Shown here: positions 6,068 through 37,227 of the stretch, in pieces
Layout of the letters: each line of letters opens with the position of its first letter
How positions within the stretch are numbered: the stretch's first letter is position 1
Assembly (NCBI GenBank): GCA_016183865.1
Contig: JACPDT010000130.1
Span: 7,841-45,067, forward strand
Source of the DNA: Armatimonadota bacterium
Lineage (GTDB): Bacteria; Vulcanimicrobiota; JACPDT01
Length of the DNA stretch: 37,227 nucleotides
Direction: 5' to 3'
The notes under the pieces: generated by a model
Seen by the model: the letters and a program-made list of their open reading frames with translations, nothing else
Databases searched by the model: none
What the model was told of the DNA's origin: nothing
Program-made: the position numbers and the translations under genes

Positions 6068-6073
6068 ATTTCT

Positions 6074-7471: not shown

Positions 7472-7521
7472 GGTCTCCTCGCTCTAATTTCAAAGTGCAA
7501 ATTCACGCAGAACCAGGCAAT

Positions 7522-8996: not shown

Positions 8997-9014
8997 GAAA
9001 GCATCCCTTTTCTT

Positions 9015-11335: not shown

Positions 11336-11347
11336 CTCCGGTCATTT

Positions 11348-12324: not shown

Positions 12325-12381
12325 ATTCCGACCTCGCGATCCTCCTTTCCACTAGGCTAGGGTCAACGGTGCTGCAGTCAG

Positions 12382-12834: not shown

Positions 12835-12850
12835 AATCTTGTATTTCCCC

Positions 12851-12885
12851 TCCACTTTACTCCACTCTACGCCATCATTATACCA
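12851..12885 (-). promoter_or_regulatory. Candidate MraZ operator: four TGG repeats at 10-11 bp spacing
   Basis: Minus-strand TGG triplets occupy 12885-12883, 12874-12872, 12864-12862 and 12854-12852, spaced 11, 10 and 10 bp. The last two sit in the identical word AGTGGAG. They begin at the -10 element and run across the expected start site. Known MraZ sites are short direct repeats with one-turn periodicity upstream of mraZ (TGGGN repeats in E. coli, AAAGTG-type repeats in Mycoplasma). A fifth TGG at 12833-12831 is about two turns further on. Confidence 0.65.
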
Positions 12886-12907
12886 CACAGTAGACGGGAT
12901 CTGTCAA
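12877..12907 (-). promoter_or_regulatory. Sigma70-type promoter of the mra/dcw operon
   Basis: On the minus strand TTGACA (12907-12902) and TATAAT (12882-12877) are both perfect consensus, 19 nt apart. A TG dinucleotide one base ahead of the -10 forms an extended -10 element, which can compensate for the long spacer. Transcription would begin near 12870, just upstream of the mraZ start. Confidence 0.8.
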
Positions 12908-17562: not shown

Positions 17563-17606
17563 ATCGCTTACGATAAGAATCTTCGTAACCCTTCACCCCC
17601 ACCCAA

Positions 17607-17723
17607 CCTCCCCCCTCAAGGGGGAGGAGAAAGAAAGGATCCCCGCAGAGCCGGGATCCCGAGCCGCTCGACGCCGCTTCGATCAACCCTCAAGGGGGAG
17701 GAGAAGAAAGGATCCCCGCAGAG
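17607..17723. repeat. REP-like palindromic repeat, two direct copies in a divergent intergenic region
   Basis: CCTCCCCC and GGGGGAGG (17607-17614 and 17620-17627) form an 8-bp stem with a 5-nt loop. The downstream arm and about 30 nt after it occur again: 17613-17650 and 17687-17723 match except for one A. The block separates the divergent GT4 and polymerase genes and is open in the polymerase frame, which artificially lengthens that ORF. A related copy lies at 33532-33581. Confidence 0.75.
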
Positions 17724-17742
17724 GATTCAGAATCAACATCCT

Positions 17743-18948: not shown

Positions 18949-19030
18949 AATTATGTAACTACTCAGGTAGTCAGGAGTCAGAATGAGGACGTGCCGTTTC
19001 CATTGCCGCAAACATTGCGGGAGGGTGGAA

Positions 19031-21491: not shown

Positions 21492-21917
21492 CTAACCGAA
21501 GAAATGGTGAAACACGGCCTTCAGAAATTCATCCACATCGTCAAGGCTTTCTCGGGCAATTCTGTATACTCTTGAATCATCCACCTTCCAATACAAGTGA
21601 ACCAGCAGATTCCTGAACTTCGCCATTTGCGCGAGCTTCGCGGCGAGCTCTTCCCGAATCACGCCCTCCTCTCGTAAGACCGAAAAACAATCGGCATAAT
21701 CCTCCGGACACCTTCCGCCCTCCTTTGCAGCGATGTGGTTGCATATGTCAATTGCCCCTTCGGTGACCACGATCAGGAGGTACTTGACACTGTTTATCGC
21801 TTTTGAGTCGGCAAGAAACTGCTCCAGAGACAGAGATGCAATGCCCTCGATTTCTTTTTTCGCTTTCCGAATCTCTGAAGCCACTTCCCGAAGCCTGTCC
21901 GGATTGACCTTACCCAA
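21492..21917 (-). CDS. hepT: HepT-like ribonuclease toxin (HEPN domain)
   Basis: A 141-residue helical HEPN protein with the catalytic Rx4HxY motif intact (R102-H107-Y109 in FRNLLVHLYW). In characterised HepT/MntA systems the toxin is an RNase, and the partner nucleotidyltransferase blocks it by AMPylating the tyrosine of this motif. The start is TTG 21917 with an excellent AAAGGAGG 6 nt upstream, overlapping the antitoxin gene by 8 nt. The intact motifs and promoter suggest a live module. It sits alone between two glycan gene blocks, consistent with horizontal acquisition or a stabilising role. Confidence 0.92.
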   Translation of the reverse strand: MGKVNPDRLREVASEIRKAKKEIEGIASLSLEQFLADSKAINSVKYLLIVVTEGAIDICNHIAAKEGGRCPEDYADCFSVLREEGVIREELAAKLAQMAKFRNLLVHLYWKVDDSRVYRIARESLDDVDEFLKAVFHHFFG

Positions 21918-22290
21918 GGAGCACCTCCTTTAAGTGCTTCCGTGCCACGGGTTGGAAGTCATAATACTGGTCGCGGGTCCTCTCCACAAAACTGTCCCGC
22001 AGTTCCTCATCACGAGACAGGAGGACGATTCCCCGAGTGGCGTGGAAACGAAAGGCCAGGGTTGCGTGATTCAGGAGCCTGACATCCACGGGCCTTTTAA
22101 CAAGACGCTCAAGAGCGACGCCCAGCTCAAGCTCATAAGTGAGATCCTTCCCGGGATTGGAAAAAACAGCAATATCTATATCTCGAAACAGACCCCGCTT
22201 CTGGAAGGAACCGTGGAGATAGGCAAACACCACTTCTTCTCTTCCCGACAAGTGGTTTGTGATTGTTGCTATGATATCATTCCTGTCCAT
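21910..22290 (-). CDS. mntA: MntA-like nucleotidyltransferase antitoxin
   Basis: A 126-residue minimal nucleotidyltransferase with AYLHGSFQKRGLFRDIDIAVF: G27-S28 and the D37xD39 metal pair of the NTase fold, with a slightly short spacing. It would neutralise HepT by adding AMP. The frame is open 14 codons further, but ATG 22290 is preferred: AGAGG lies 6 nt upstream, and the extended start (22332) falls between the -35 and -10 of the promoter, upstream of the expected transcript start. The short 5' leader places it first in a two-gene operon. Confidence 0.9.
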   Translation of the reverse strand: MDRNDIIATITNHLSGREEVVFAYLHGSFQKRGLFRDIDIAVFSNPGKDLTYELELGVALERLVKRPVDVRLLNHATLAFRFHATRGIVLLSRDEELRDSFVERTRDQYYDFQPVARKHLKEVLLG

Positions 22291-22309
22291 GTTCAACCTC
22301 TGCAGATAG

Positions 22310-22339
22310 ATTATAGCACAAGATGAAGACAAGGTTCAA
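22310..22339 (-). promoter_or_regulatory. Sigma70-type promoter of the mntA-hepT operon
   Basis: Minus strand TTGAAC (22339-22334) and TATAAT (22315-22310), 18 nt apart, with a TG extended -10. Transcription would begin near 22303, about 13 nt before the mntA ATG. Confidence 0.65.
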
Positions 22340-22598: not shown

Positions 22599-22988
22599 TC
22601 AGGGATCCGCAGGGGCTTTCGTCTTGCTTCGAGATGGGGTACGGGCCCTTTCTTTCGCCAAAGTCGTGACCAGGACCAGAAGCCCTGCGAGGAATGTTGC
22701 GGAGAAGAAAATCCGTGCAAACTTGTCTTCGAGAAGACTCCACAAGAACATGCGCAGACTACTGCCGGACTCGGCAGTGAGGCCGATTTTTCCATAGATC
22801 CCCAAGCCCAGGATCGCCAGCGTCGGCCAACCATAGTAGGCCAGCCGAAAACGGCGCTCTCCGCGCGTCTGTCCCTTGTCGAACAGAGTCAGGAAGAAAT
22901 GGACCGCCAGGTAAGCAGGCACGATCATCAGGGCAGGGGTGAATATCTCCATTGGCGCTATCTCAAGGATATACCAGCAAATGCCCAT
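22599..22988 (-). CDS. Small membrane protein, unknown function
   Basis: A 129-residue protein from ATG 22988 (AAGGGG 8 nt upstream) with about three hydrophobic segments: FTPALMIVPAYLAVHFFLTLF, GWPTLAILGLGIYG and FFSATFLAGLLVLVTTLA. The C-terminus is charged (KERARTPSRSKTKAP). I do not recognise the family. The frame is open upstream to 23204, but that part is compositionally poor and lies in the shadow of the preceding small membrane ORF, with which it overlaps by 31 nt. It could be the second half of one gene split by a frameshift near 23000. It is last in the long operon. Confidence 0.55.
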   Translation of the reverse strand: MGICWYILEIAPMEIFTPALMIVPAYLAVHFFLTLFDKGQTRGERRFRLAYYGWPTLAILGLGIYGKIGLTAESGSSLRMFLWSLLEDKFARIFFSATFLAGLLVLVTTLAKERARTPSRSKTKAPADP

Positions 22989-23197
22989 GTAGATAACCCC
23001 TTGGAGAGTTTCTCGCTGTGCAAAAGGATACTCTTCACATAAACAAGCGCGAGAGCCACCCACACCATAATGCCAAATGAGACCAGGACATACTCTTGGG
23101 TCATGACGGGGACGCAGGCGTAGACGGGTGGAGAAAGGAGGAGCACGAGCACAGCGGCCGTTATCGCTGCTTGTATCGGAAGCCGCCTTTCTCCCAC
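22958..23197 (-). CDS. Small membrane protein with signal-like N-terminus, unknown function
   Basis: A 79-residue frame from GTG 23197, with GGGAGG 10 nt upstream. It has a signal-like segment (AAITAAVLVLLLSPPVYAC) and a second hydrophobic segment (YVLVSFGIMVWVALALVYV). The cysteine after VYA could be a poor lipobox. The tail after KLSKG loses its membrane-protein character exactly where the next frame becomes convincing, so this and the following ORF may be one frameshifted gene. The frame is also open upstream into the end of the radical SAM gene. Confidence 0.45.
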   Translation of the reverse strand: MGERRLPIQAAITAAVLVLLLSPPVYACVPVMTQEYVLVSFGIMVWVALALVYVKSILLHSEKLSKGLSTWAFAGISLR

Positions 23198-23238
23198 GCC
23201 GCAATGACCTCCCAGTCGGCAGACTAACAGCGCTACGT

Positions 23239-24345
23239 TTAAGAGCCCATGAGCTTCCGAATCAGAGAGCGGTTCTGCCATGGGTGGGCCAGAAGACTTG
23301 CCAGAATGTTCTCACCGGCGTTGCAGAAACAGTACCTGCAATCAGGCTCGAAACGACCTTTTCGAAAGTTTCGACGGAGGGGATCGAGATTCTTCCATTC
23401 GGATTGCAGGCTCTTTTGGGCGATGTTTCCACCATGCGCGAGAAGAGCGCAGGGCTTGAGACTCCCCTCATAGTCTACGTAGCCTGACCAGAAAGCCTTG
23501 ATACAACGAAACCCTGAGACCAATTCCTGCAGGTAGAAACCGGACTCCTTTCTTGCGAAGGACTTGAAATAGGGAACTGCGACCGTCTCGAACATGCGGA
23601 GATCGGTCCCGATACCCAGGCGGCGGGCAGTGATGAGCCCTCTTTGGATCTCGGCAACCAGAGCAGCGATATCCCCTTCATCGTCCAGGAGGAAAGAGGC
23701 TTTGATTGGAAGGGGAGGCTGATTGACGAAGATTCCCGCAGGGCTCACAGGCTGGAAGTGGACAAAGGGAATCCCCTCCTGGGCTGCCAGCTCGATGAGG
23801 GGTGAGATCTCCTTCAAGTTGTCTTTTCCAATGACCGCGTTCAAGGAAAGATCCCTGATCCCCGCTTCTCTGGCTCTTCCTATCGCAGAAAGAAGCTTCT
23901 CATAGATCCCCGGGACTCCTCTTATGATATCACACTGGGCCTTCTGACTTGAATCAATGGAAAGAGACAGGCGACTCCCCCGCTCAGAAAGGAGGGCCAA
24001 CTCATTGGAGGAAAGGGACGAAATTACGATGCCATTGGAAATCGCGGAAACACGAATCTTCCTGGATTCCAGCCGGGCGAGGATCTCCCACAGGTCCTTG
24101 CGGATAAAGGGCTCCCCCCCCACGAGGAGAACCTCTTCCACCCCCATTTCAGCCATCTCATCCACAATGGTGAGCATTCTCTCCGTGGGAAGAGCCGCTT
24201 TCGCCGAGATTCCCGGGGCCTCGCAGAAAACGCAGCGAGCGTTGCAGTGCCCTGTGACGGCCCAATCCAGTGTGACAGGTCGGGGCGAAGCATAGGTCTC
24301 GAAGGCCTGGAGAGCTCGCCGGAGCTTCCCGAAAGAGAGCTTCAA
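23239..24345 (-). CDS. Radical SAM protein with SPASM-like C-terminus
   Basis: A 368-residue radical SAM enzyme. C34-x3-C38-x2-C41 (CNARCVFC) binds the 4Fe-4S cluster, followed by LLVGGEPFIRKDLWEIL (GGEP binds SAM) and AISNG. The C-terminus has CIKAFWSGYVDYEGSLKPC and CRYCFC, typical of SPASM/twitch auxiliary clusters, which occur in peptide- and carbohydrate-modifying enzymes. Start TTG 24345 is preferred: GGAGG lies 8 nt upstream and it forms a TTGA overlap with the GT2 stop; a TTG at 24369 is weaker. No precursor-peptide gene is evident nearby, so the substrate may be a glycan or lipid carrier. That is inference. Confidence 0.9.
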   Translation of the reverse strand: MKLSFGKLRRALQAFETYASPRPVTLDWAVTGHCNARCVFCEAPGISAKAALPTERMLTIVDEMAEMGVEEVLLVGGEPFIRKDLWEILARLESRKIRVSAISNGIVISSLSSNELALLSERGSRLSLSIDSSQKAQCDIIRGVPGIYEKLLSAIGRAREAGIRDLSLNAVIGKDNLKEISPLIELAAQEGIPFVHFQPVSPAGIFVNQPPLPIKASFLLDDEGDIAALVAEIQRGLITARRLGIGTDLRMFETVAVPYFKSFARKESGFYLQELVSGFRCIKAFWSGYVDYEGSLKPCALLAHGGNIAQKSLQSEWKNLDPLRRNFRKGRFEPDCRYCFCNAGENILASLLAHPWQNRSLIRKLMGS

Positions 24346-25166
24346 ATGGGTTTCCTCCAATAAATCCAACCCCAGGCGGCTCCTGCGAGATAAAGAAAAA
24401 AAGCGAGAAACAGGATCCAGTTGCCTGTCAGGAGCGCCCCCGTCATGCGCGTCAGGTAGCGCACAATTCGTCGGCTGCGGGGTTTTCGCTCTTCGGGGGA
24501 GGAAAAATCAGCATAAGGCGTCTCATAAATGAGGTTCGAATGGAATTTGTTATCATGGGCGGCGCCCATCCCCCTGCGGAACATGTCCCTCATAAAAATC
24601 TTCGGAGTAGCAGGAAGAGGATGGTAAACAAGAGACTCGGGTGCCAGACAAATGCGATATCCCGCCTTCCTTACCCGATGCTTGAATTCCGCGTCATCTC
24701 CCCTGAGGAGCCGATCATTCTCCCCCCCCAGGTGCAGGTACAATTCCCTTCGAATAGCGCGGCATGCATGAGTCACCATGTCGGATTCAACGGGAGCCGA
24801 GACCACAGGGGATTCGCTTCTCGGCATTTTCGCCGCCACGAGTCGCTGCCAGGAATCTGCCGCCAGGGGAATATGCTGGGAGGCGCCTGCCATGCCGATG
24901 GAGGGATCTCCTCTGAGAGTTTGGATCAGGTTCTCGAAAAGCCTGGCATCCCCAATCCGAACATCGTCGTCCAGACTGACGAGAAATTCCCCCTTCGCCC
25001 GCCGGGCGCCTTCATTATGAGCTTTTGCGCAGGGACGGACCCCCTCCACGACAATGACCTCAACGTCCTGGATCGTCTGGGATCCTATGTCCCCGAGGAG
25101 TCTTTCCAGGTTGCCTCCTCTCTTACCATCCAGGGAGGGGATGATCACGGAGATGAGCGGTTCCAC
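24342..25166 (-). CDS. GT2 family glycosyltransferase
   Basis: A GT-A fold glycosyltransferase of 274 residues. It starts ISVIIPSLDGKRGGNLERLL, then IVVEGVRPCAKAHNEGARRAKGEFLVSLDDDVRIGD with the metal-binding DDD, and RGDDAEFKHRVRKAGYRICLAPESLVYH in the acceptor part. A C-terminal hydrophobic hairpin (GNWILFLAFFLYLAGAAWGWIYW) suggests membrane attachment. GTG 25166 gives the correct N-terminus, 2 nt after the stop of the upstream GT4. Donor sugar unknown. Confidence 0.92.
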   Translation of the reverse strand: MEPLISVIIPSLDGKRGGNLERLLGDIGSQTIQDVEVIVVEGVRPCAKAHNEGARRAKGEFLVSLDDDVRIGDARLFENLIQTLRGDPSIGMAGASQHIPLAADSWQRLVAAKMPRSESPVVSAPVESDMVTHACRAIRRELYLHLGGENDRLLRGDDAEFKHRVRKAGYRICLAPESLVYHPLPATPKIFMRDMFRRGMGAAHDNKFHSNLIYETPYADFSSPEERKPRSRRIVRYLTRMTGALLTGNWILFLAFFLYLAGAAWGWIYWRKPI

Positions 25167-25168
25167 GA

Positions 25169-26227
25169 TTAAGTCATTTCCTCGTACAATGCCTCCAGGC
25201 GGGCGAGCCAGACCCTGGAGTCGAACTCCGCCCGAACTCTTGCCAGATTCTGGTTTCGAATTCGTTCATACAAGTCCTTCTCCGAAAGGAGGCGAAGGAT
25301 TGCTTCAGCAAGTGAAGCGGAGTCATTCACGGGAACCATCAGAGCGTGGATATCGGGGGACATCCAACTCCTGACTCCCGGGGTTTCCGTCACAACCGGC
25401 GGCACTCCGCAAGCCATTGTCTGAAGGAGCGTTACAGAAACTGCGTCGGACGCGGGAATGGAAACTACGATACCGGAGGACTGCATTATTTCCGCCAGAT
25501 TCTCTTCAGGGACCGGGGCGGTGATGCTCACCATCTCCTGAAGCCCGAGGGAGCGGATTTGATCCTCCAGATTTCTCCTGTACCCAGAGTCCTCATTAAA
25601 GGCAAGCAAACGGAAACGGACCTCGGGCGCCGATTTCCTTACGATAGGCGCAGCCTCCACCAGGGTGTGAATCCCGTAAGTCGGGCGCATGGCCCGCGGG
25701 CTCAAGACCAGCAGAGGGCCGGCGCCTTTCCTCTGCCGAAACAGGGCCAGGTCCACGCCGATCTGGTGCATCCGGAGTCCCTCCCTTCTTACACCCAGTC
25801 CGATGCATTGATCATACGTGAGGGGCAGATTGGTGGTCACTCCGTCCGCCCGCAGGAGGGCTTGTCTGGTGAGCAGGTAAAAGAAGGGATAACGGATGCG
25901 CAGATCCACAAGCATGTCGCTTCCCTGCGTGGTGAGGAGAACCGGACGATAGCCGGACAGGGCAGCGATCCAGCCGGGGCCTGTGACATAAATCCCGTGT
26001 ACAAGGTCAGGCTTTTCCTTTTTGAGAACGCCTCGAACCCTTGACAGGGCGCCGACCAGATCCCAGGGGAAGCGAATATTGGATACATGAAGAATCTCCC
26101 TGACCCCTGGGATGGTCTTTCTGGCGCCATAGGAGATCAAGATCACCTCATCCCCTCTTGAGACCAGATGCTCCATCCAATGCAAGGGCACAGACGACGT
26201 AGGAACGGCCACAAAACAAATCTTCAT
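25169..26227 (-). CDS. GT4-like glycosyltransferase with degenerate EX7E motif
   Basis: A 352-residue GT-B protein from ATG 26227, which overlaps the upstream TGA as ATGA. The longer open frame upstream is the shadow of the preceding gene. It has KICFVAVPTSSVPLHWMEHLVSRGDEV, DLVHGIYVTGPGWIAAL, TTQGSDMLVD, LSPRAMRPTYGIHTLVEA and LQEMVSITAPVPEENL. The usual EX7E is replaced by DAVSVTLLQTMACG, so the glutamate that contacts the nucleotide-sugar is Gln and the first Glu is Asp. It may be a variant subfamily with altered donor use. Its place in the chain of coupled genes ties it to glycan assembly. Confidence 0.9.
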   Translation of the reverse strand: MKICFVAVPTSSVPLHWMEHLVSRGDEVILISYGARKTIPGVREILHVSNIRFPWDLVGALSRVRGVLKKEKPDLVHGIYVTGPGWIAALSGYRPVLLTTQGSDMLVDLRIRYPFFYLLTRQALLRADGVTTNLPLTYDQCIGLGVRREGLRMHQIGVDLALFRQRKGAGPLLVLSPRAMRPTYGIHTLVEAAPIVRKSAPEVRFRLLAFNEDSGYRRNLEDQIRSLGLQEMVSITAPVPEENLAEIMQSSGIVVSIPASDAVSVTLLQTMACGVPPVVTETPGVRSWMSPDIHALMVPVNDSASLAEAILRLLSEKDLYERIRNQNLARVRAEFDSRVWLARLEALYEEMT

Positions 26228-27432
26228 AGAAGCGTCTCCAAGGTGGAGGAAAGCAGGCGCCCCACAGCGCGGGAATGAAGCTCTTCTGGAAAATGGGGCA
26301 CCGGGGCGCCGCCTTCCTGAACTTGCAGCAGAAACTTCTCGAAAACCCCCACTTTGGTCTCGTCCTCCGGAGAGACGACACAGGCGCCGTGCCGCCGCAG
26401 GATGTTGCCCGCAGTCCCCTCCGGCGGAGTCAAGCCGAAGATCGGCCGGGCCATTGCCAGGCACTCCGGGATCTTTGCAGGGAAAAATGGGGCGCTCACT
26501 GAGAAAGGGGGATCCGTCAGAAGGATGGCGTGGGATTTTCTTAACAACTCTACGGCCCGCCCATGTTCCACCTCTCCGAGGTACGCCATTTCCCCTCCGG
26601 GGAAAGCCTCCTGAATCATGACCCTGTATTTCTCCTCAAGTCTGCCGATCAGTTGGACCCTGATCTCCGACGCCCCCGGCGATCTTGTCCGATAAAAGGA
26701 TTCCATCAGGTGGATCAGTGGGATCGGAGTCCTGGGACCATAGAAGTTCTGAGCGCACGTAATCACCCAGGGGGGCGGCGGTGGGGGCGTCCTTTCTTCT
26801 GCGCCCGTCTCCGCAGGGTCAAAGGAATGAGGTATGACCACACTTTTTCGGTTCCACTCAGGGGGGTAGCCTGAAAGAACAAAATCCCTGAGACTGTCTG
26901 CCGGGAAGATCAAGAGATCAGCCTGGGAAAGGACTTTCCTTTCCCAGGAAGATGAAATGACCTTGGAAACAGGACTGTTGGGCACATAAGGGCTGTTCGT
27001 CCAGGGATCGCTGAAGGCAGCGGCCCAGGGGAGGGAAAGGTTCCGGCTGATCGAGAGCGCCGCCAGATGTCCGGTAAAAGGCGAAGAGAGCGAAAGAATT
27101 ACATCAGGCTGAAAGGGGATCCGACTCGCCCCTTTCCTGGCAGGCCACAGCCATCCCACCTGGGGGTCGGGCAGAAACCGGAGGAAAGGCAGAAAAAAGA
27201 AAAAGGGATCGAGATTGATCGTCTTGATCCGCTGGACAGTAACCTCTCCTGGAAGAAATTCCAGGAGTGTCGTGTCTGACCGGTAAGGGGGGGCGATCCC
27301 CCCTGCCAGGACGTGAACCTGCCAGCCCAGCTCAGGTAAGAATCGCAACATCCTCCCCGCCTGGATCGCCTGGGAGCCCAGGAGGGGTGGGAAGAAATAG
27401 GAGATTACGAGAATGCCTTTGGATGATTTCAT
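26224..27432 (-). CDS. Glycosyltransferase, GT4-like (FPP-type N-terminus)
   Basis: A 402-residue GT-B protein. ATG 27432 begins ILVISYFFPPLLGSQAIQAGRMLRFL, the common start of sugar transferases that read YxFPP. It continues with LSSPFTGHLAAL, FSDPWTNSPYV, VVIPHSFDP, VITCAQNFYGPRTPIPLIH, QLIGRLEEKY and AYLGEVEHGRAVELL. The C-domain signature is FFPAKIPECLAMARPIFGL rather than EGFG. The start forms ATGA with the upstream methyltransferase, and its own stop forms ATGA with the downstream GT4. Confidence 0.9.
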   Translation of the reverse strand: MKSSKGILVISYFFPPLLGSQAIQAGRMLRFLPELGWQVHVLAGGIAPPYRSDTTLLEFLPGEVTVQRIKTINLDPFFFFLPFLRFLPDPQVGWLWPARKGASRIPFQPDVILSLSSPFTGHLAALSISRNLSLPWAAAFSDPWTNSPYVPNSPVSKVISSSWERKVLSQADLLIFPADSLRDFVLSGYPPEWNRKSVVIPHSFDPAETGAEERTPPPPPPWVITCAQNFYGPRTPIPLIHLMESFYRTRSPGASEIRVQLIGRLEEKYRVMIQEAFPGGEMAYLGEVEHGRAVELLRKSHAILLTDPPFSVSAPFFPAKIPECLAMARPIFGLTPPEGTAGNILRRHGACVVSPEDETKVGVFEKFLLQVQEGGAPVPHFPEELHSRAVGRLLSSTLETLL

Positions 27433-28388
27433 TTGTGCAGGATTAGATAAAGGCTTGTCGCCTGGGCAGGGAGGAGAGCCCTTCCGATGAGCTCGAAGAG
27501 ATCGTCTATCCATTTGTATCCCCTGATGATGGAATCCAGGGTCCAATGAGGGACTCCCCAGCCGATGGGGTGGACCTCCCTGATCCCAAAACCGATCTTG
27601 CGGCATTTCTCGGAAAGAGATCGGGCCGTGTAAAAATGAACATGGTCGGTCAGGGCCAGTGTTCTTGGCTCCAGGCGGTAGGCGAGCCTCCAGAAGAAAG
27701 CCCCTTCGTTGGGAACCCCCAGGATGAGAATGCCGGAGGGCTTAAGGATCCTCCGCGTTTCCGCCAGGGCCCTTTCGTCGTCCGGGATGTGTTCCAGCAC
27801 ATGATTGAAGAAAATCACGTCAAAGGAATCGTCCAGGGCAGGGTAGTCGGAAAGGTCCGCCAGGAAAAGATTCTTCTTCTCAGGCAGTTGACCGGCCCGC
27901 AGCAGACGCTTCAGATTGTAGTCGCTTCCATACAGATCTCCCGCAAGAGGGGCAAGCCACGAAAGGTTTCCCCCATCTCCGCAACCCAGGTCAAGAATGA
28001 CCGGTTTGCCCCGATTCTCGCTCCCGTATTTCTGCAGCACCCTTTCCACATACCGCCTTCTTTTGATCAAATGGTGACGATAGGGCCCGGTCCATTGCCT
28101 TGCCTGGGGCCCTTCGTACCACTGCCCCCGCCCTGCGCCGACCGCCTCCCTGATGGCTTCCTCGATCCCGGGGAAATCCTTGACAAGGATGGGGATGCCC
28201 TCAACAATGGGGATCTTGAATGAGCATTCCCCGCAATGCGCCGTGTCTTCACTCATTAGCGCAGAAAGGGGACTTCGACATGCCGGACATCTGAAAATGC
28301 CGCCCCGGGAGCTGCCTGGAATCTCAAGCTTCTCGGAAAAGGGATTCGTAAGCCTTTTTCTCCTTTTCTTCCATTTCTTCGCCTCCAT
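27429..28388 (-). CDS. Zinc-ribbon (Trm112-like) class I SAM-dependent methyltransferase
   Basis: A 319-residue protein. After a lysine/arginine-rich start, a zinc ribbon (CPAC ... CGEC, then IPIVEGIPIL) precedes a class I methyltransferase with VILDLGCGDGGNLSWLA (motif I), LFLADLSDYPALDDSFDVIFFNHVLEHIPDDERAL and ILKPSGILILGVPN. In glycan clusters such enzymes commonly O-methylate sugars; the target here is unknown. ATG 28388 is used; a TTG at 28430 is possible. It overlaps the upstream GT4 by 65 nt, an unusually large overlap in this operon. Confidence 0.9.
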   Translation of the reverse strand: MEAKKWKKRRKRLTNPFSEKLEIPGSSRGGIFRCPACRSPLSALMSEDTAHCGECSFKIPIVEGIPILVKDFPGIEEAIREAVGAGRGQWYEGPQARQWTGPYRHHLIKRRRYVERVLQKYGSENRGKPVILDLGCGDGGNLSWLAPLAGDLYGSDYNLKRLLRAGQLPEKKNLFLADLSDYPALDDSFDVIFFNHVLEHIPDDERALAETRRILKPSGILILGVPNEGAFFWRLAYRLEPRTLALTDHVHFYTARSLSEKCRKIGFGIREVHPIGWGVPHWTLDSIIRGYKWIDDLFELIGRALLPAQATSLYLILHK

Positions 28389-29475
28389 ACAGCAAGGCTC
28401 TTTCAGAGGATTTTCTCCCCATCTCCGCAAGAAGGTCGGGGTGCTCTATCAGTTGCTGAAAGGCCCTTTCGAAGCTCTCTGGAGTGTTCTCTACAACCAC
28501 GGCGATGTCCCCCACGGCTTCCGGCTCCTGTTCCCACCGGTTTCTCGCGACAACCAGGGGAAGCCCGGATGCCATGGCCTCAAGGGTCGGAATATGAATC
28601 CCCCCATGCTCGGAGGCGACTGCCAGTAAATCTGCATCTCCATAGTGGCGCTGGATCTCCTGGTTTGGAACGGATCGGATGAAACAGACCCTTTCCTCCA
28701 GGTTCAAGGTTCGAGCAAGGTCCGCAAGTGCCCGGTATTGCTCCCCATCCCCGATCAGGGTAAGATGAGCATCCAGATCGCGAATAGCCAGGATCAGCTT
28801 GTGCTGGCCCCTTTCTCTGATCATTCTGGAGACATTAAGGATCTTGAGCGGTCCTCCCCGGCGGGGAGAGCGCTCGATCCGGAAGCGGGACAAATCAACC
28901 CTGTTGTAAATGATCTCGATCTCCCTGGGCTCGAATTGCTTCGCATAAAGATAGGGCCAGCGATAGGCGCAAATGATCTTATCGGCGTTTCGGATCACAT
29001 AGGGCTCGATGAAGAAACGGGAGTACAAGGCATTGCGGAGGCGTTTCCATCTGCGGTTCTTCCAGTCCTGATAGCGTTCGTCCAGATCGTAATGGCCGTG
29101 GACCGACACGAGTACCGGAATGCCCAGAGCCCTTCCGCACTTCACCGCCATCCACCCGGCCAGCACGGGATTGTAAGCACGGACGACATTCGGCCTGACC
29201 TCGCTTATGTATTTCATCGCACTCTCAATCGGCGCATCATACGGCGTCCTTACCGGCAATGTCATATAATAGGACAACTCTCCCAAAGGATGAATGAGCA
29301 TCCGGGCATCACCGGCCAGGATGGAGACTTCCTCCGCAGTGGCATCCGAGTCCGCCGGGGACATCACATGAATCTCATCAAAGAGATTCCCCGGGTTCAG
29401 GTAGCGGGGTTTCAGCTCTCCTTTTTGAAGATACGCTTTCAGTGGATCATTGGGGAAGACGCAGAGCTTTCTCAT
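28324..29475 (-). CDS. GT4 family glycosyltransferase
   Basis: A 383-residue GT-B enzyme from ATG 29475, which overlaps the upstream aminotransferase TGA as ATGA; the longer frame is spurious. Features are PNVVRAYNPVLAGWMAVKCGRAL, VSVHGHYDLDERY, IEIIYNRVDLSRF, LNVSRMIRERGQHKLI, LIGDGEQYRALADLA, IRSVPNQEIQRHYGDADLLAVASEHGG and IPTLEAMASGLPLVV. The catalytic-site glutamate of LEAMASG is kept. The C-terminus is highly charged (GGEEMEEKEKKAYE). Confidence 0.92.
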   Translation of the reverse strand: MRKLCVFPNDPLKAYLQKGELKPRYLNPGNLFDEIHVMSPADSDATAEEVSILAGDARMLIHPLGELSYYMTLPVRTPYDAPIESAMKYISEVRPNVVRAYNPVLAGWMAVKCGRALGIPVLVSVHGHYDLDERYQDWKNRRWKRLRNALYSRFFIEPYVIRNADKIICAYRWPYLYAKQFEPREIEIIYNRVDLSRFRIERSPRRGGPLKILNVSRMIRERGQHKLILAIRDLDAHLTLIGDGEQYRALADLARTLNLEERVCFIRSVPNQEIQRHYGDADLLAVASEHGGIHIPTLEAMASGLPLVVARNRWEQEPEAVGDIAVVVENTPESFERAFQQLIEHPDLLAEMGRKSSERALLYGGEEMEEKEKKAYESLFREA

Positions 29476-30674
29476 GTTGCAAAATATCCCCGCACGGCAT
29501 CTGCTGTCACTTCCATGTCGCCTGGCCCTAACCACGGCTGGACAGGCAATGAGATGAGCCCTTTCCAGAGTCGGTCTGTGACCGGAAGGGGCGATCTGAG
29601 AAATTGCGCGAGATCGGGGCGCAGGTGGAGGGGCCAGTGTGTGAACTCAGGCTCGATACCGCGGCTCTCCAGAAAGCGATGGAGGGCCAGGACCTGCGGA
29701 CTCTTTTCCCGACAGGGCCCCGGGCTTCCGACATGGACAATGAATTTTGTAAAAGTGTGTCCAGGGGGGTCGGGAAGGGTGAGGCCCTCCACATCCGAAA
29801 GAAGGCGGATCAGTGTTTCCGCGTTCCCCCTTCTTCGTGCCTGGATTTCGTGATGCTTGCGGAGCTGGACCATGGCCATTGCTGCATCCTGCACGCTCAT
29901 TCTGCAGAGCGGCCTCTCCAGTTGCTGCACTGGCCGCCTCATCCTGTCAAAGGCCAGAAAAAATGGAAAGGTGTGCTTTCTCAGACGGAATCGAAGCATA
30001 GCCCGGAGCGCCCGCCCAAGTATGACGGCAAAGGGCTCGGCGGGAAGAGGCGGGGGGGCGGGCAGGTTCGGGTTGGACAGAATCAGGACCCCTCCTGCAG
30101 TGCTCATCAGAAGCTTCCCTGCGGAGAAGCTCAGAATCCCGGCATCTCCCCAGTTGCCGAGAAACCTGCCCCCATGGTCTCCCCCGAAAGCCTGAGCAGC
30201 GTCATCTATGACGAAAATGCGGAATCGGGCGGCCATTTCCACAATCTCGGCCATTCTTGCGGGTTTCCCGCCTGTGTGAGGGACCAGAATGGCCCGGGTC
30301 TTTTCCGTGAGGGCTGGCTCGATGGTTTCCGCTGTTGCGTTCAAATCCCCGGCGATGTCACAGAAGACAGGGGTTGCCGAGAGCCGCAAAATGGGCGCCA
30401 GCGCGGACCGACAAACAAGAGAAGGGATGACTACCTCGTCCCCGGGACCGATTCCCATGGATTTCAAGGCAAGAAAAATGGCGCACTGACCGGAGCTTAC
30501 CGCCATTACCCGGGAGGCGGAAAGGCGCCGAGTCAGCTCCGATTCCAGCGCCTCCACCGCATCCCGAGGCGGACTCAGAAAGGCTTCCAGCTCTTCTTCA
30601 TCCCAGTAGGGAACCAGATAGGGAATTCGATAAAAGGAATTCAGAAAGGAGCGGATCTTTCGGTCGAGCATCAT
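29472..30674 (-). CDS. DegT/DnrJ/EryC1/StrS-family PLP aminotransferase
   Basis: A 400-residue PLP-dependent aminotransferase of the sugar-aminating family. It has AVSSGQCAIFLALKSMGIGPGDEVVIPSLVC near residue 58, IDDAAQAFGGDHGG (Asp contacts the PLP ring) and LSFSAGKLLMST with the PLP lysine. Members convert nucleotide-linked keto-sugars to amino-sugars. No dehydratase or dehydrogenase that would make the keto substrate is visible, so that must be encoded elsewhere. The long proline-rich insert after the lysine (NPNLPAPPPLPAEP) is unusual. ATG 30674 is coupled to the upstream methyltransferase by ATGA. Confidence 0.93.
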   Translation of the reverse strand: MMLDRKIRSFLNSFYRIPYLVPYWDEEELEAFLSPPRDAVEALESELTRRLSASRVMAVSSGQCAIFLALKSMGIGPGDEVVIPSLVCRSALAPILRLSATPVFCDIAGDLNATAETIEPALTEKTRAILVPHTGGKPARMAEIVEMAARFRIFVIDDAAQAFGGDHGGRFLGNWGDAGILSFSAGKLLMSTAGGVLILSNPNLPAPPPLPAEPFAVILGRALRAMLRFRLRKHTFPFFLAFDRMRRPVQQLERPLCRMSVQDAAMAMVQLRKHHEIQARRRGNAETLIRLLSDVEGLTLPDPPGHTFTKFIVHVGSPGPCREKSPQVLALHRFLESRGIEPEFTHWPLHLRPDLAQFLRSPLPVTDRLWKGLISLPVQPWLGPGDMEVTADAVRGYFAT

Positions 30675-31519
30675 GGATTGCGCTCTTTCTCACATATGAT
30701 GAGATGCCGAAACGCAAAGGAGCGAAGAACCGGAAGGGAGCTGAGCCATTCTTCCAGCATGACCCCGGCCATCTTGTGTGTGAGCCAGCGAGCCGCTCTT
30801 GGATCCGGAATACCGGCTCTCATCGGCAGGACCTGGAAAAACCGGATCTTCCGGATGGTGAGAGCGGCTTTTTTCAGGAGGCGTCTCATCTCCGCAGGAA
30901 GCAGATGGGAGACAGGGGCCTTTTCCCGCATCGTAAGCCGATGATTCAAACTCCGGCGATTGCCCAGCTCCAGGAGCGCTTTTCCACCGGGGCGCAGGAT
31001 TCGGCCGATCTCCGACAGCGCTCTCTCCGGTGACGCCACGTGATAGAGAGTTGAAAAGGAACAGGCCAGATCAAAGGAAGCATCCGAAAGAGGGAGGGCT
31101 TCCAGGTTTCCTCTGAGGAAATAGGCTTCCGGCGCGTTTTTTGCCGCCTCCAGAAGCATGGGGGCGGAAAAATCCACACCAAGCCGAAGGCGGGCAACCC
31201 CTGAGATCGTCTCCAGGTGCCTCCCTGTGCCGCAGCCGAGGTCCGCCACATCGGCATTTTCGGCAAATCCGGAAAGAAGGGTCGCCCTTATTGTTTCCAA
31301 AGCTTTCTGGTAAGGCGGCGCCGAGCTCCGGGGGCGATCATAGGCGGGTGCATGGGCATCAAAGAAGGGGATGCCCGAAGGGCGCCCATCGAGGAGATCG
31401 GGAATGCCTGATTCGAGGGGGAAGATTCTCGAACAGCCTGAGCACCGCAGTGGCATACACCCTGAGAAGCGGCCCATGCACGCCGGGCATCGAATCAAAT
31501 CCAGGAACTCTTGATTCAT
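30671..31519 (-). CDS. Zinc-ribbon (Trm112-like) class I SAM-dependent methyltransferase
   Basis: A 282-residue protein opening with a zinc ribbon (IRCPACMGRF ... RCSGCSRIFPLESGIPDLL), then DVADLGCGTGRHLETI (motif I), LGVDFSAPML, DLACSFSTLYHVASPERAL and RILRPGGKALLELGN. Residues beyond 190 form a variable lid that would choose the substrate. ATG 31519 gives an ATGA overlap with the upstream methyltransferase; ATG 31525 two codons earlier is equally open. Confidence 0.9.
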   Translation of the reverse strand: MNQEFLDLIRCPACMGRFSGCMPLRCSGCSRIFPLESGIPDLLDGRPSGIPFFDAHAPAYDRPRSSAPPYQKALETIRATLLSGFAENADVADLGCGTGRHLETISGVARLRLGVDFSAPMLLEAAKNAPEAYFLRGNLEALPLSDASFDLACSFSTLYHVASPERALSEIGRILRPGGKALLELGNRRSLNHRLTMREKAPVSHLLPAEMRRLLKKAALTIRKIRFFQVLPMRAGIPDPRAARWLTHKMAGVMLEEWLSSLPVLRSFAFRHLIICEKERNP

Positions 31520-32427
31520 CGGCATTTGACGGCAATCGCAAAAAATAGCTCTCCCTCGGCGGGAAAGAGAATGCTCCGGATTCGGTCAAAGAAGGAGCGT
31601 CCCGAGTAGTATGTCTCGAAACGATCGAGTCGGAGCGGCGCATCGAAGAGCTGCTGCGGATGCAAGCCCTGCTGGATATTGGCTTCAAGATTTGCGCGGT
31701 TCATGGCCCTTATGGCTTCTTCTTCAGGCAGCTCGGGATAAAGAGACCGGGCCCAATGAGCCGCTTCCCTCCCCACCTTCCCGGGAAAAAGGGAATGCCA
31801 TTTGAATCGTGCGGCCAGGAAGAGGTAATGAATACGCCCTGGCGCGACCGCATGAGGCTCATGAATGACGATGGCTTTCCCCCCCGGTTTCAATACTCTG
31901 GCTGCTTCTCTCAGGCTTCTCCCCGGATCGGGCAGGTGGTGGAGAGTGGCGGCAAAGGTCACAATGTCCATGGAGTCGCTCGCAAAGGGGAGGTTCTCGG
32001 CATCTCCCTGAACCGGGTAAAGGTTGGGCCGCCCGATTGTGTCTCGAAGCCTTTCCAGCATGCCTCTGGAAATGTCGAGACAGCAGCAAATCTCCCAATG
32101 GGGGAAGTGCTTCGGAACAAACCCTGTCCCTGATCCGATGTCCAGAATGCGCCCCCCAGGCGGCACTTGCCCCAGGATCCGCTTGGCGAGACGGGCTTCG
32201 CGCCTGATATGCAGGTGCATCTCATCATATTGTGCAGCCTCCCGATCGTGGTGATCCCTGTTGATTCGTTTTGTCGGATCCTCCCAGGTTTCCTCGGGCA
32301 GGAAGACGGGGATCCCATCCTGGATAGGAAAGGGATGGTAACATTTCTCACATACCAAAGGATTTCCATCCCGGAGGCTGGCCTTGCACAGAGGGCAGGC
32401 GAGCAATTCAAGGATCCTGGTGCTCAC
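31516..32427 (-). CDS. Zinc-ribbon (Trm112-like) class I SAM-dependent methyltransferase
   Basis: A 303-residue protein from GTG 32427, which overlaps the FemAB-like stop as GTGA. The longer open frame is discarded because the zinc ribbon (ILELLACPLCKASL ... VCEKCYHPFPIQDGIPVFL) is the natural N-terminus. The methyltransferase core has ILDIGSGTGFVPKHF, CLDISRGMLERL, DIVTFAATLHHLPDPGRSL and VLKPGGKAIVIHEPH. It is adjacent to a second enzyme of the same design but not a recent duplicate, as the sequences differ strongly. Confidence 0.9.
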   Translation of the reverse strand: MSTRILELLACPLCKASLRDGNPLVCEKCYHPFPIQDGIPVFLPEETWEDPTKRINRDHHDREAAQYDEMHLHIRREARLAKRILGQVPPGGRILDIGSGTGFVPKHFPHWEICCCLDISRGMLERLRDTIGRPNLYPVQGDAENLPFASDSMDIVTFAATLHHLPDPGRSLREAARVLKPGGKAIVIHEPHAVAPGRIHYLFLAARFKWHSLFPGKVGREAAHWARSLYPELPEEEAIRAMNRANLEANIQQGLHPQQLFDAPLRLDRFETYYSGRSFFDRIRSILFPAEGELFFAIAVKCR

Positions 32428-33521
32428 CGATTCTCCCCCTTCAATTTGCGCACAAGATGAGCGGTCCTGCCCAAAAGAGAGTAACGACAGGTTTTCCCGA
32501 ACATCCTGATCGTCACTTTCTCCCCTCCCCACTTCTCCTTGAACCTCCGAATTCCTGACTCCTTGGGTGTGGCCGGATCAGGGGAGATTCCGGCAAGATC
32601 GTAAACCCGGGCGCCTTCTCGAACCGCCGTGCGAAGGATTTCGTCTTTCAGGAGATCATTGCCGTAAAGCTTCTCCCTGAAGCTCTTTTCCGATTGGACC
32701 GAGAAAAACTCTGTCCAGATGCCGTTGAATTTCCAGATCCCCAGTCCGCAAAGCGTCTCATTTCCGCGATGGGCGGCGAAGAAACGCAGGCAGGCGTCCG
32801 GTTGGAGGTGTTTCCAGAGACTTCTGAAGACCTGCCAGGGCGGAACGCGGAAGCCTTCAATGTCCTTCCTCCTGCTGGCCCTCTTGAAAAAGGCATAGTA
32901 CTGTGAAAGCTCCCAAAGGGTACTGATCTCTTTGATTTGAATTCCCTCGTCCCGAGCCCTGCGAATCGCCTTTCTTGCCGACTGACGATAGCGGCTCATC
33001 AAATCCTCCTCGCCACAGCGCAAGTCAAGAAGAAGGGTGGCCTCCTCCCGCTCGATCCTGTAGCCTGCTTCAAGAAAGGACGGCGCCCACAGGGAGGCTT
33101 CAGAGCCCATGTCGTGACAGGGCAGCCGAACTTTGTCCACAAAATGTATCCCATCTTCCTGAGCCTTTTTATCCAGGGCGGAGAGGAGGCATTTCGCCGC
33201 GGTCTGGTCCTCTTCCCCGAGGAAAAGAGGACCATATAGCCAGGTATAGGAAGGAAAAAGCTCCCTCACCAATCGCGTCAAGCCTCTTGCATTCGCGCCG
33301 CTCAAAGGGACATCCAGGAATTTCTTCTTGAAGAACAGGAGAAGGGCTGAAGGCTGCTTTGATTCATGATCACGGACGACAAGGTAGCGGGGCGCCCACT
33401 TGTTGCGCTCCCCCATCACCGCTGCCCAATGGGTTGTCTGGAAAATGGTTCCAGATGGAGAAGAAGCCACCCATTTGTTCCATTCTTCGGGATCCCAGTG
33501 ATCCTTGATGATGGCTTTCAT
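32424..33521 (-). CDS. FemAB/GNAT-fold aminoacyl-transferase-like protein
   Basis: A 365-residue protein starting KAIIKDHWDPEEWNKWVASSPSGTIFQTTHWAAVMG and ending with GNDLLKDEILRTAVREGARVYDLAGI and GIRRFKEKWGGE, the signature of FemAB/peptidoglycan-bridge and related glycan-locus enzymes. Family members add amino acids from aminoacyl-tRNA to lipid-linked precursors; the same fold occurs in exopolysaccharide clusters where the substrate is unknown. In this context aminoacylation of the exported glycan is a reasonable inference. ATG 33521 follows the flippase stop by 5 nt, and its GGGAGGGAG ribosome site lies in repeat-derived sequence. Confidence 0.85.
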   Translation of the reverse strand: MKAIIKDHWDPEEWNKWVASSPSGTIFQTTHWAAVMGERNKWAPRYLVVRDHESKQPSALLLFFKKKFLDVPLSGANARGLTRLVRELFPSYTWLYGPLFLGEEDQTAAKCLLSALDKKAQEDGIHFVDKVRLPCHDMGSEASLWAPSFLEAGYRIEREEATLLLDLRCGEEDLMSRYRQSARKAIRRARDEGIQIKEISTLWELSQYYAFFKRASRRKDIEGFRVPPWQVFRSLWKHLQPDACLRFFAAHRGNETLCGLGIWKFNGIWTEFFSVQSEKSFREKLYGNDLLKDEILRTAVREGARVYDLAGISPDPATPKESGIRRFKEKWGGEKVTIRMFGKTCRYSLLGRTAHLVRKLKGENR

Positions 33522-33526
33522 CCTGA

Positions 33527-34890
33527 TCAGCTCCCTCCCTCTGCCTCTCCCTCGAGGGGAGGGGGGGAGGTTGAGTGGGGGATGATTGCGCTGAGAAGAA
33601 TCCTCAATATTGAGAAAGTCGGCAATTTGAGAATGACAGTGGCTGAAACATAAACGGCGAAGGCCGCGACAGAGGCCGCGGCTATCTGCCAAAGAGCGGC
33701 CGGGCGCCATGGGAAGACAAGAAAGAAAGCTGCCGCGGAAGCTGCGACAATCTTGACGAGAGATTGAGGATGGTAAGCAAGAGGAAGGAGCGGTGATGTA
33801 ACGATCACCATTACGATGAGATGAAGCAGATAGGTGGCTGCTGTTGCAGTCGCGGCGCCGGTCGCCCCGAAAGGCGGAATCAGAAAGATGTTCAGAACCG
33901 TATTGACAGCGGCGCTCCAGCCGAAAAGCAGGGGCAAGACGTGCGTTTTCTTTGTGAGGGAAAGGACGATCTCTCCGAAACCGGAAATCATCAGAAACCC
34001 GTACCCGAAAGCCACAATGGGAAGATTGTGTGCCCCCTGCGCAAACTCAGAAGTCGTCAGGAGTCTCACAATCTGTGGCGAAAAAAGGACGGCCAGGACG
34101 AGGAGTGGGGCGATGATGAAAATCGAGGCCTGAAGCGTGTCCTGAAAGAGCTCCTTCACCTCTTCCTTCTTCCCCTCATTCCAGAGGCGTGAAGCGATGG
34201 AGGGAAGAATCAGAAAAATAGGGTTGAACACGACCATGGCCAGGGTATAGCCAAGACTGTACGAAACCGAGTAGATCCCGACTTCTTCCGCTCCTCTGAA
34301 GGCCCCAAGAAAATACCTGTCAGATACGCCTGCAACCCAGATGGAGAAGGCCATCGGCACATAAGGCAACCCGAAGGAGACCAGGGTCTTCGCATTCTTA
34401 AATTTCGGCCACGAGAAGCCGATTTCACGAATAACTCCGAATGAAGCCGCCCCAAGGACAATCCCATCCAGTATGATCCCCGCGAGGATGGCGCCTTTCA
34501 CTCCATAACCCGTGAGCACCAGTGCGGCCACAAGGAGGGTGCTGCCGAAGGATTCGGCGATGGTGAAGGCGGAATAGGTTTTCATCCTGACAAACACGCG
34601 ATAGTAGCGCTTGAAGACATCCTTTGTCGCGGAAAGAACGAGAGAGACCGCCCCCAGGCGCACCAGGAGCGCATGCTCTGCATTGCCGAAAATTCGGGAT
34701 GCCAGAATATCGGCGCCGAAGGGGTCAGGAGGCTCACGGTTGCTCCGATGAGGGCCCAGACCCCATAGTCAATGGTGCCGATGGCCCGTGTCAGAATGGG
34801 AATCAGAATGAATCCCTTGAGTTTCAGGGCAGCATCGGTGAGCGCGGAGATCGCCACATTCTTCGCAAACTCACGATAAACAGGTTTCAC
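33527..34890 (-). CDS. Wzx-like polysaccharide flippase, frameshifted as read at ~34715
   Basis: Polytopic flippases of this superfamily move undecaprenyl-linked oligosaccharides across the inner membrane. The N-terminal frame (ATG 34890, coupled by ATGA to the deacetylase) gives ILIPILTRAIGTIDYGVWALIGATVSLLTP and then loses sense. The family sequence resumes in another frame with ADILASRIFGNAEHALLVRL and continues through FVRMKTYSAF, VAGVSDRYFLGAF, GIYSVSYSLG and FGATGAATATA to 33527. Between LLTP and ADILAS, roughly 40-50 residues usual in the family are absent, so this is an internal loss, not a single-base slip. The last ~14 residues (STSPPPLEGEAEGGS) come from a REP-like repeat. Confidence 0.8.
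33532..33581. repeat. REP-like palindromic repeat, third copy, overlapping the flippase 3' end
   Basis: Read on the minus strand it shares about 19 of 20 bases with the block at 17596-17615 (CCCCCAC.CAACCTCCCCCC). It then has CCCTCGAGGG, where the other copies have the CTCAAGGGGGAG arm. It supplies the C-terminal residues of the flippase and the ribosome-binding region of the FemAB-like gene. Confidence 0.65.
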
Positions 34891-35744
34891 GAAGACCTCT
34901 CTCTAACCAAATTGGCAATTGTGCCGTAGGGAATATGGCGGAGGCCGGGCTTGGGGCTCAGGATCGAAAGAACCTGGCGCAAAATGCCGCGCCGGGTGAG
35001 AGCGCTCGGGTCGAAATAGTAGGTAAGGTATCCTTTCTGCCGGACAAGCTGGACGATGGATTCCGCCAGTATTGCCGTGAAATCGGCGGGATCGCGGCAA
35101 ATTGCCTTGTCTGAGTCCAGGAAGTTCCATGTGTCGAAAAGGGCGCCAGGGTAACGGGCGGAGGTCCCAAGAGGGATTTCCACGATCCCTGTGGGCGTCA
35201 GCGAGGGGCCGGAACCTTTACCGGATGTGTCCACGACCGTGGAAGAAGAAAAACGGTACCCCAGTTTCCTGAGAACGGGGTAAAGCTCTTCCGAATGATT
35301 GATCCCAAAGTGAGGGGTGCGAAAACCGGAAGGCGAATAGTCCAGGGCCTGCCCGCAAATCCGGTGACACTGGGCGATTTCCTCCGCCTTCTCCTCAAGG
35401 GACAGATCCTTGAATTGACGGCCCTGATTCAAGATTTCGTGATAAGGATGGGTGTGGGAATGGTTCAAAATCTCGTGCCCTTTCTTCAGGATCTCCCGAT
35501 GGATCTCAGGGAACCTCTCAATCCAAATCCCGATACATGCAAAAGCGGCGGGAATCCGAAAAGCCGCGAGTGCGTCCAGGATTTCCGGAAGGGCCTCAAG
35601 GTCTTCCTCCGTCTCGCAGTCAAAAGAAAGGGTGAAGCAGGGAACCTGGCCGGCCAAGGCCGGCAATCTGCCGGTTCTGCGAAGAATTCCGTTCAGGTCC
35701 CCCCTTCGAAGGGCGGATCTTATGCCATGAAATACGTTTTCCAC
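34887..35744 (-). CDS. NodB-family polysaccharide deacetylase
   Basis: A 285-residue carbohydrate esterase 4 type protein. CFTLSFDCETEEDLEAL carries the catalytic and metal aspartates (D-C-E in place of the usual DDG). ILNHSHTHPYHE gives the HxxxH metal ligands, and SPSGFRTPHFGIN is the RxPxG-like motif. Such enzymes remove N- or O-acetyl groups from glycans; exopolysaccharide loci often begin with one. There is no obvious signal peptide, so the cellular side is unclear. GTG 35744 is the usable start, with GAGGAAG about 11 nt upstream. It is the first gene of the long minus-strand operon and diverges from the B12 radical SAM gene. Confidence 0.88.
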   Translation of the reverse strand: MENVFHGIRSALRRGDLNGILRRTGRLPALAGQVPCFTLSFDCETEEDLEALPEILDALAAFRIPAAFACIGIWIERFPEIHREILKKGHEILNHSHTHPYHEILNQGRQFKDLSLEEKAEEIAQCHRICGQALDYSPSGFRTPHFGINHSEELYPVLRKLGYRFSSSTVVDTSGKGSGPSLTPTGIVEIPLGTSARYPGALFDTWNFLDSDKAICRDPADFTAILAESIVQLVRQKGYLTYYFDPSALTRRGILRQVLSILSPKPGLRHIPYGTIANLVRERSS

Positions 35745-35774
35745 AGTGAGTATGCTTCCTCAAGACGAATTCTC

Positions 35775-35793
35775 TTCCTCCCGGAAGGAGGAA
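35775..35793. other. Small inverted repeat in the 88-bp divergent intergenic region
   Basis: TTCCTCC (35775-35781) and GGAGGAA (35787-35793) form a 7-bp stem with a 5-nt loop, between the start codons of the divergent deacetylase and radical SAM genes. It could be an operator. I see no strong -35/-10 pair on either strand here. Confidence 0.35.
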
Positions 35794-35832
35794 ATCTGCA
35801 GGAATTGCCGATCCTTATACCAGGAGGCCGTT

Positions 35833-37227
35833 GTGAAAACCCTGCTGATTCAGCCGCCCCTGTACAATATTGCCCGCTATGGGAAGCCGGTTGTGGCGCC
35901 ATACGGCCCGCCGCTGGGAATCGGCTATATCGCGGCCTACCTGGAAAAGCTGGGGCTTCCCGTGCTTGCTGTGGACGCATCCTACCTGAAATGGGAAGAA
36001 GTTGAGCGGCTCCTCCTGTCCGAGGCTCCCGACATTGTGGGTGTTACCTGCCTCAGCGAGCAAAGGTCGAGCTCTTTCCGTCTGGCGAAACGGGCGAAGG
36101 CCCTGCTGCCTTCCTGCAAGACCATACTCGGGGGAGTCCACGGAAACTTCATGTACCGGCAGATTCTGACTCATTTCCCCTTTGATGCCGTTGTGCTGGG
36201 AGAAGGGGAAATCACAACAGCAGAAATCATCGAAGCCCTGGGTGCCGGTCGCCCCCTTTCCTCGGTTCCCGGACTGGCCTGCGTGGAAGGAGGGAAGGTG
36301 GTTCTCTCCCCGCCAAGAAGAGTCCTGGATCGCCTGGATGATCTCCCCTTCCCTGGGCACCGTTTCTTTCGGGGAAGCCGATATGTGCGCTATGCGCTCC
36401 TCTATGGACGATTTGAGGGAAAGGACCTCGGAAAGCTCAAGTTCATGCCTGTGATCACATCCAGGGGATGTGTGAAGCATTGCGAGTTCTGCTCGACTAC
36501 GGAGTTCTGGTCCGGACGCTGGCGCCATCGTTCTCCGGAAAATGTGGCGGATGAGCTGGAATGGCTCATTCGCGATCTCGGCGTCGGGTTCGTGAACTTT
36601 GCGGACGACATTTTCACGGTCAATGAAAAATTCGTGACATCCTTGTGCGAGGAAATCCTGCGGCGGAAGCTGGCATTTCTTTGGGATTGCGAGACCCACG
36701 CTCAGTTCGTTTCTCCCGAGATCCTGAGAATCATGAAACAAGCGGGCTGCATGGCCATCGCCTATGGCGTCGAGTCCGGCTCTGATGCGATTCTCTCCAA
36801 TATCCATAAAGGGTCCTCCAGAGCCCTTGTGGAGCAAGCCATCCGACTGACGAGAGAGGCCGGCATCCGGAGCAGTGTTCTCCTCATGGTAGGAAACCCG
36901 GGTGAAAGCGAGGCAACCGTCTCAGAGACCCTGTCCCTCCTCAAGGAAACAGAGCCCGATTATTTGACGGTTTCCATTACCATGGTCTTTCCGGGGACTT
37001 CCCTTCACAAGAGGGCCGAAAAAAAAGGATGGATAAAGGACGACTACTGGCTCACGGACCGCCCTGGCCCCTATTACACGGTTGAGCATCCCTTCGGAAA
37101 ACTCCAGAAATGGCAGGATAGTCTCCTTGCCGCCCATTCCCGCGGCATGGAACGATGGGCGCGGCGAGTCCGTTCCGCCGTTGAGAGGCTCACAGGTCTC
37201 AGAATCACCAGAAGACATTTCGGATTC
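35833..37227 (+). CDS. B12-binding domain radical SAM protein, C-terminus beyond window
   Basis: An open frame of 465 codons to the window end with no stop. Start GTG 35833 has AGGAGG 5 nt upstream. The N-terminal ~150 residues are a cobalamin-binding Rossmann domain (LLIQPPLYNIARYGKPVVAPYGPPLGIGYIAAYLEKLG, GVTCLSEQ, ILGGVHGNF, VVLGEGE). The radical SAM domain has C213-x3-C217-x2-C220 (SRGCVKHCEFC), FADDIFTVN, AYGVESGSDAIL and MVGNPGESEATV. The family includes methyltransferases acting on unactivated carbons and ring-rearranging enzymes. Substrate unknown; the neighbouring operon suggests a glycan, lipid or polyprenoid. Confidence 0.92.
   Translation, partial: MKTLLIQPPLYNIARYGKPVVAPYGPPLGIGYIAAYLEKLGLPVLAVDASYLKWEEVERLLLSEAPDIVGVTCLSEQRSSSFRLAKRAKALLPSCKTILGGVHGNFMYRQILTHFPFDAVVLGEGEITTAEIIEALGAGRPLSSVPGLACVEGGKVVLSPPRRVLDRLDDLPFPGHRFFRGSRYVRYALLYGRFEGKDLGKLKFMPVITSRGCVKHCEFCSTTEFWSGRWRHRSPENVADELEWLIRDLGVGFVNFADDIFTVNEKFVTSLCEEILRRKLAFLWDCETHAQFVSPEILRIMKQAGCMAIAYGVESGSDAILSNIHKGSSRALVEQAIRLTREAGIRSSVLLMVGNPGESEATVSETLSLLKETEPDYLTVSITMVFPGTSLHKRAEKKGWIKDDYWLTDRPGPYYTVEHPFGKLQKWQDSLLAAHSRGMERWARRVRSAVERLTGLRITRRHFGF

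Follow-up and report, generated by a model that had tools for sequence, protein, structure and literature searches.

On the minus strand of the window, that is, of the whole 37,227-nt stretch of DNA analysed here, 12 same-direction genes run from position 35744 down to 23239, and we consider it probable that they form a lineage-specific, mosaic operon that assembles and tailors a cell-surface glycan (an O-antigen, a capsule or another exported oligosaccharide) on a lipid carrier. The set of enzymes is in keeping with a surface-glycan locus of the ordinary, fast-evolving kind that encodes several tailoring enzymes. As predicted from the gene families, its product would likely be methylated, aminated, and N-acylated or aminoacylated.

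Gene content and organization of the operon

We delineated the chain by reading the open reading frames (ORFs) and by a family profile search of the window. As several listed ORFs carried spurious N-terminal extensions, the gene starts were re-read by hand. The genes are listed below in their order from 35744, with the supporting matches in parentheses.

34887..35744, minus strand: NodB-family polysaccharide deacetylase, NodB (PF01522, 5.6e-18)
33527..34890, minus strand: Wzx/MATE-type oligosaccharide flippase, Wzx, interrupted (PF13440, 8.8e-14, and PF01943 in the downstream frame; PF01943 positions 2-49, below cut-off, in the N-terminal frame)
32424..33521, minus strand: FemAB-family (FemX-like) transferase, FemAB, with ATG at 33521 (PF02388, 5.4e-16; PF13480, 1.7e-9)
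31516..32427, minus strand: Trm112-like zinc ribbon plus class I SAM methyltransferase, MT1 (PF08241, 9.4e-24; PF03966, 1.7e-7)
30671..31525, minus strand: CxxC...CxxC ribbon plus class I SAM methyltransferase, MT2 (PF08241, 1.6e-21; cysteine pairs)
29472..30674, minus strand: divergent DegT/DnrJ/EryC1/StrS sugar aminotransferase, DegT (PF01041, 4.8e-54; TlmJ, 5uid, 1.7e-34)
28324..29475, minus strand: glycosyltransferase GT4a (PF00534, 2.3e-22)
27429..28388, minus strand: CxxC...CxxC ribbon plus class I SAM methyltransferase, MT3, start uncertain (PF13489, 4.5e-21)
26224..27432, minus strand: glycosyltransferase GT4b (PF13439, 1.7e-8)
25169..26227, minus strand: glycosyltransferase GT4c (PF00534, 2.8e-23)
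24342..25166, minus strand: glycosyltransferase GT2 with a C-terminal hydrophobic segment (PF13641, 3.7e-13)
23239..24345, minus strand: radical SAM protein (PF04055, 4.7e-25)

Neighbouring genes share a 4-nt stop-start overlap at eight of the 11 junctions, the sequence being GTGA at NodB/Wzx and FemAB/MT1, ATGA at MT1/MT2, MT2/DegT, DegT/GT4a, MT3/GT4b and GT4b/GT4c, and TTGA at GT2/radical SAM. The spacing is 2-5 nt at the GT4c/GT2 and Wzx/FemAB junctions, and GT4a and MT3 overlap by about 65 nt when counted from the first plausible start of MT3. Such a run of 12 collinear genes, eight of whose junctions are start-stop overlaps, is well beyond what chance would produce. The original prediction had taken these overlaps to imply strict co-expression; they are real, and together with the collinearity they support a predicted co-transcription of the genes, but they are no proof of strict co-expression. 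The chain had also been drawn down to 22599, whereas the same-strand operon stops at 23239. Beyond it, the ORF at 22599-23204 had no family match in the profile search, and its plausible start (22988 or 22952) is separated from the stop of the radical SAM gene by about 250 nt. Among the NCBIfam matches listed, none of the 12 genes of the chain scored above a curated cut-off.

Tailoring enzymes

Pfam matches confirm that FemAB-like, NodB and radical SAM enzymes are all encoded in the operon, as originally proposed. The FemAB protein scores 58.9 bits against PF02388 (cut-off 24), which places it in the FemAB/FemXAB family; it has a PDB relative, 9wqw, named 'aminoacyl-tRNA-dependent peptide synthase' (2.2e-10), and this relation is too distant to infer activity. 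Similarly, DegT belongs to its family with 184.4 bits against PF01041 (cut-off 19.8), and no full-length relative above about 35% identity was found in the phylum search and the scan of named genomes described below. NodB carries the motifs SFDCE (40), HSHTH (95), FRTP (141) and YYFDP (242). Related deacetylases usually have a histidine in a late C-terminal motif. Since YYFDP stands near the C-terminus of NodB in place of a recognisable motif of this kind, its activity is uncertain. The radical SAM protein, numbered from a TTG at 24369, contains CNARCVFC (cysteines 42, 46 and 49) and GGEP (84), followed by later cysteines at 289, 307, 344, 347 and 349 that are consistent with a putative auxiliary Fe-S (Twitch/SPASM-like) domain. 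Among PDB structures, PqqE, SkfB and cytosylglucuronate decarboxylase are its best relatives. AlphaFold models built from three-sequence alignments were poor for both FemAB and the radical SAM protein (mean pLDDT 49 and 44, respectively).

Each of the three methyltransferases has two CxxC pairs followed by a glycine-rich SAM-binding motif, and their mutual identity is 26-30%. Their earlier description as three zinc-ribbon methyltransferases thus holds for the paired CxxC, present in all three, but only MT1 passes the Pfam cut-off for Trm112p.

Proposed pathway and the interrupted flippase

In the pathway that we propose, an undecaprenyl-phosphate initiating transferase encoded elsewhere would start the chain, and the three GT4s and the GT2 would extend it. 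The DegT enzyme would place an amine on a keto-sugar nucleotide, and the FemAB-family protein may then transfer an acyl or aminoacyl group to the amino sugar. O-methylation would fall to the three methyltransferases, removal of N-acetyl groups to NodB and, judging from its family, a radical modification to the radical SAM protein, after which the Wzx-type flippase would export the product. The original prediction of a methylated, aminated, deacetylated and perhaps aminoacylated glycan is a fair reading of what these families would do.

The Wzx flippase of the operon is, however, broken in this assembly. Its N-terminal frame runs from a GTG at 34890 to about 34722, residues 9-56 matching positions 2-49 of PF01943 below the curated cut-off; a change of frame follows near 34721, beyond which the continuing frame reaches 33527. 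In this downstream frame the PF01943 match begins at position 120 when read from the listed ORF start at 34663, and the PF13440 match begins at position 69 when read from stop to stop. We estimate that some 45-50 codons and the reading frame have been lost. Therefore, export would have to rely on the other flippase of the genome, unless the break arose in the assembly, as it may have done in a genome of 353 contigs. The loss of frame and codons is also what would be seen if the operon were a decaying or non-functional remnant, but we regard this as unlikely, since the other eleven genes are open and keep their overlaps, the SAM-binding, radical SAM and zinc-ribbon motifs are intact, the genome has one further full-length flippase match (contig C250), and the break itself may be artefactual.

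Quite improbable, in our view, is a small secreted glycosylated natural product, in which the radical SAM protein and the methyltransferases would decorate a sugar-containing metabolite instead of a surface polymer. The solved structures most closely related to DegT (TlmJ) and to the radical SAM protein (the three named above) do come in part from natural-product pathways, but we recognised no gene for an NRPS, a PKS or a precursor peptide in the operon, and its four glycosyltransferases and flippase point to the assembly of a lipid-linked glycan.

Comparison with known glycan loci

Like Wzx/Wzy O-antigen and capsule loci, the operon combines collinear glycosyltransferases, a DegT aminotransferase, methyltransferases and a Wzx-type flippase. 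Unlike them, it contains additional FemAB, NodB and radical SAM genes, its flippase is broken, and it lacks an initiating transferase, Wzy, Wzz and a sugar-nucleotide dehydratase/epimerase, so that it represents an incomplete pathway. The original prediction had proposed looking for a priming glycosyltransferase and a chain-length regulator just outside the window. Two matches to each family (PF02397, Bac_transf, for the initiating transferases and PF02706 for Wzz) do exist in the genome (4.41 Mb in 353 contigs, 96% complete), but all four are on other contigs. A candidate Wzy is the membrane protein at 17482-18948, which has only a weak match to an O-ligase-like family.

A likeness to XrtA/exosortase exopolysaccharide loci had been suggested as well, and the operon does share with these a polysaccharide deacetylase, GT4s and a FemAB-family protein (PMC1569441). 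The accompanying statement that no exosortase is seen was borne out and can be extended from the window to the whole 96%-complete genome, where we found no match to EpsH (PF09721) at E<=0.001; the likeness thus fails in the defining feature of such loci. Consequently, an XrtA/PEP-CTERM-type exopolysaccharide locus with its exosortase outside the window is very unlikely: the FemAB and NodB pair recalls such loci, the GT4s resemble XrtA-associated families, and DegT and FemAB genes occur together within one XrtA-type locus (L066, below), but apart from the missing exosortase, FemAB reaches only 38.2 bits against the XrtA equivalog TIGR03019 (cut-off 260.35) and NodB 45.3 bits against TIGR03006 (cut-off 276.2).

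The glycan genes for type B flagellin of Clostridioides difficile offer a further comparison, made here with part of the published account (PMC5207246). According to this part, a FemAB-superfamily gene lies downstream of these genes, and three genes in its neighbourhood are predicted to assemble a sulfonated peptidylamido-sugar. The two loci resemble each other in having a FemAB-superfamily gene beside glycosyltransferases and a methyltransferase domain, the C. difficile glycan containing a peptidylamido-sugar. They differ in that the C. difficile glycan is linked to flagellin, the neighbours there are an ATP-grasp and an ornithine cyclodeaminase gene, and neither NodB nor a flippase is mentioned in that part of the account.

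Distribution of the gene set in other genomes

We compared the operon with 149 genomes that share only the phylum with its host, so that the comparison is weak evidence on conservation in close kin. The radical SAM protein had no match at 1e-20 in these genomes, a negative that is somewhat weakened because the query did not include the N-terminal CxxxCxxC region; a full-length scan of the contigs of the named genomes returned no relative either. Weak matches were found for FemAB in four other genomes, for NodB in two and for MT1 in one. DegT had many distant matches, located in glycan loci of unlike content, and the full-length ones resemble generic DegT aminotransferases. Searches of the 149 genomes with these five proteins revealed no conserved cluster, and a plasmid search gave no close relatives of the radical SAM protein or FemAB. 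Scanning the named genomes with DegT, we recovered 80 distant loci with 25-37% identity in the best segment, among which a FemAB relative is encoded in only two (L066 and L067) and a radical SAM relative likewise in two (L073 and L113); the full gene set was present in none of the 80. Hence the statement that the exact combination is not recognised stands for the 149 genomes of the phylum and the 80 DegT loci. Insofar as no sampled relative keeps the set, the genes are scattered in relatives, an outcome that the original prediction had named as refuting it; since these relatives share only the phylum, this says little about close kin. Surface-glycan loci are common, variable and typically mosaic. 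A lineage-private combination is therefore to be expected, and if expressed, the operon would be one more gene combination among the very diverse surface-glycan loci of bacteria; alone, it leaves the picture of glycan biosynthesis unchanged.

One gene pairing, however, recurs in distant phyla. DegT adjoins FemAB in a genome of the phylum (L030) and in a member of the Krumholzibacteriia (L067), where a GT4b-like gene follows, and the two are one gene apart in a member of the Syntrophales (L066), beside XrtA-type ATPase and kinase genes. This pairing in three distant glycan loci suggests that FemAB may act on the amine installed by DegT, a candidate DegT-then-FemAB route to amino-acid-decorated sugars. 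That the operon makes a glycan with both a radical-SAM-generated sugar modification and an aminoacylated amino sugar, using divergent lineage-private enzymes, is conceivable but doubtful; we found no description of such a glycan in the literature searched.

Genomic surroundings of the operon

The window ends (37227) where the contig ends. Near the operon it contains further glycan genes, namely, two GT4s, an O-antigen-ligase-like protein and a protein with a PMT-like membrane glycosyltransferase and a GT4 in one chain. The last of these is a single 817-aa ORF (18983-21436, plus strand), possibly a genuine gene fusion. In the genome as a whole, 16 DegT-family matches were counted. Just beyond the downstream end of the operon lies a HepT toxin/MntA antitoxin (type VII) pair (21492-22332, minus strand), HepT scoring above its NCBIfam cut-off and MntA slightly under its own (57.5 of 60 bits). 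On the other side, a B12-binding radical SAM gene (35746-37227, plus strand) is divergent from NodB and cut by the contig end; its nearest NCBIfam family is BchE, below cut-off, and on contig C48 a relative of it lies next to an initiating sugar transferase. Close to intergenic regions, the translations of 33521-33600 and of about 17550-17700 resemble low-complexity repeat DNA (SPPPLEGEAEGGS, PPSPRGRGRGR and PPNLPPQGGGE), and these are probably short dispersed repeats. Finally, a dcw division/cell-wall cluster is located near the glycan genes (1403-12888, minus strand), in which MurG, FtsW, MurD, MraY, MurF, MurE, FtsI, RsmH and MraZ were assigned by eye.
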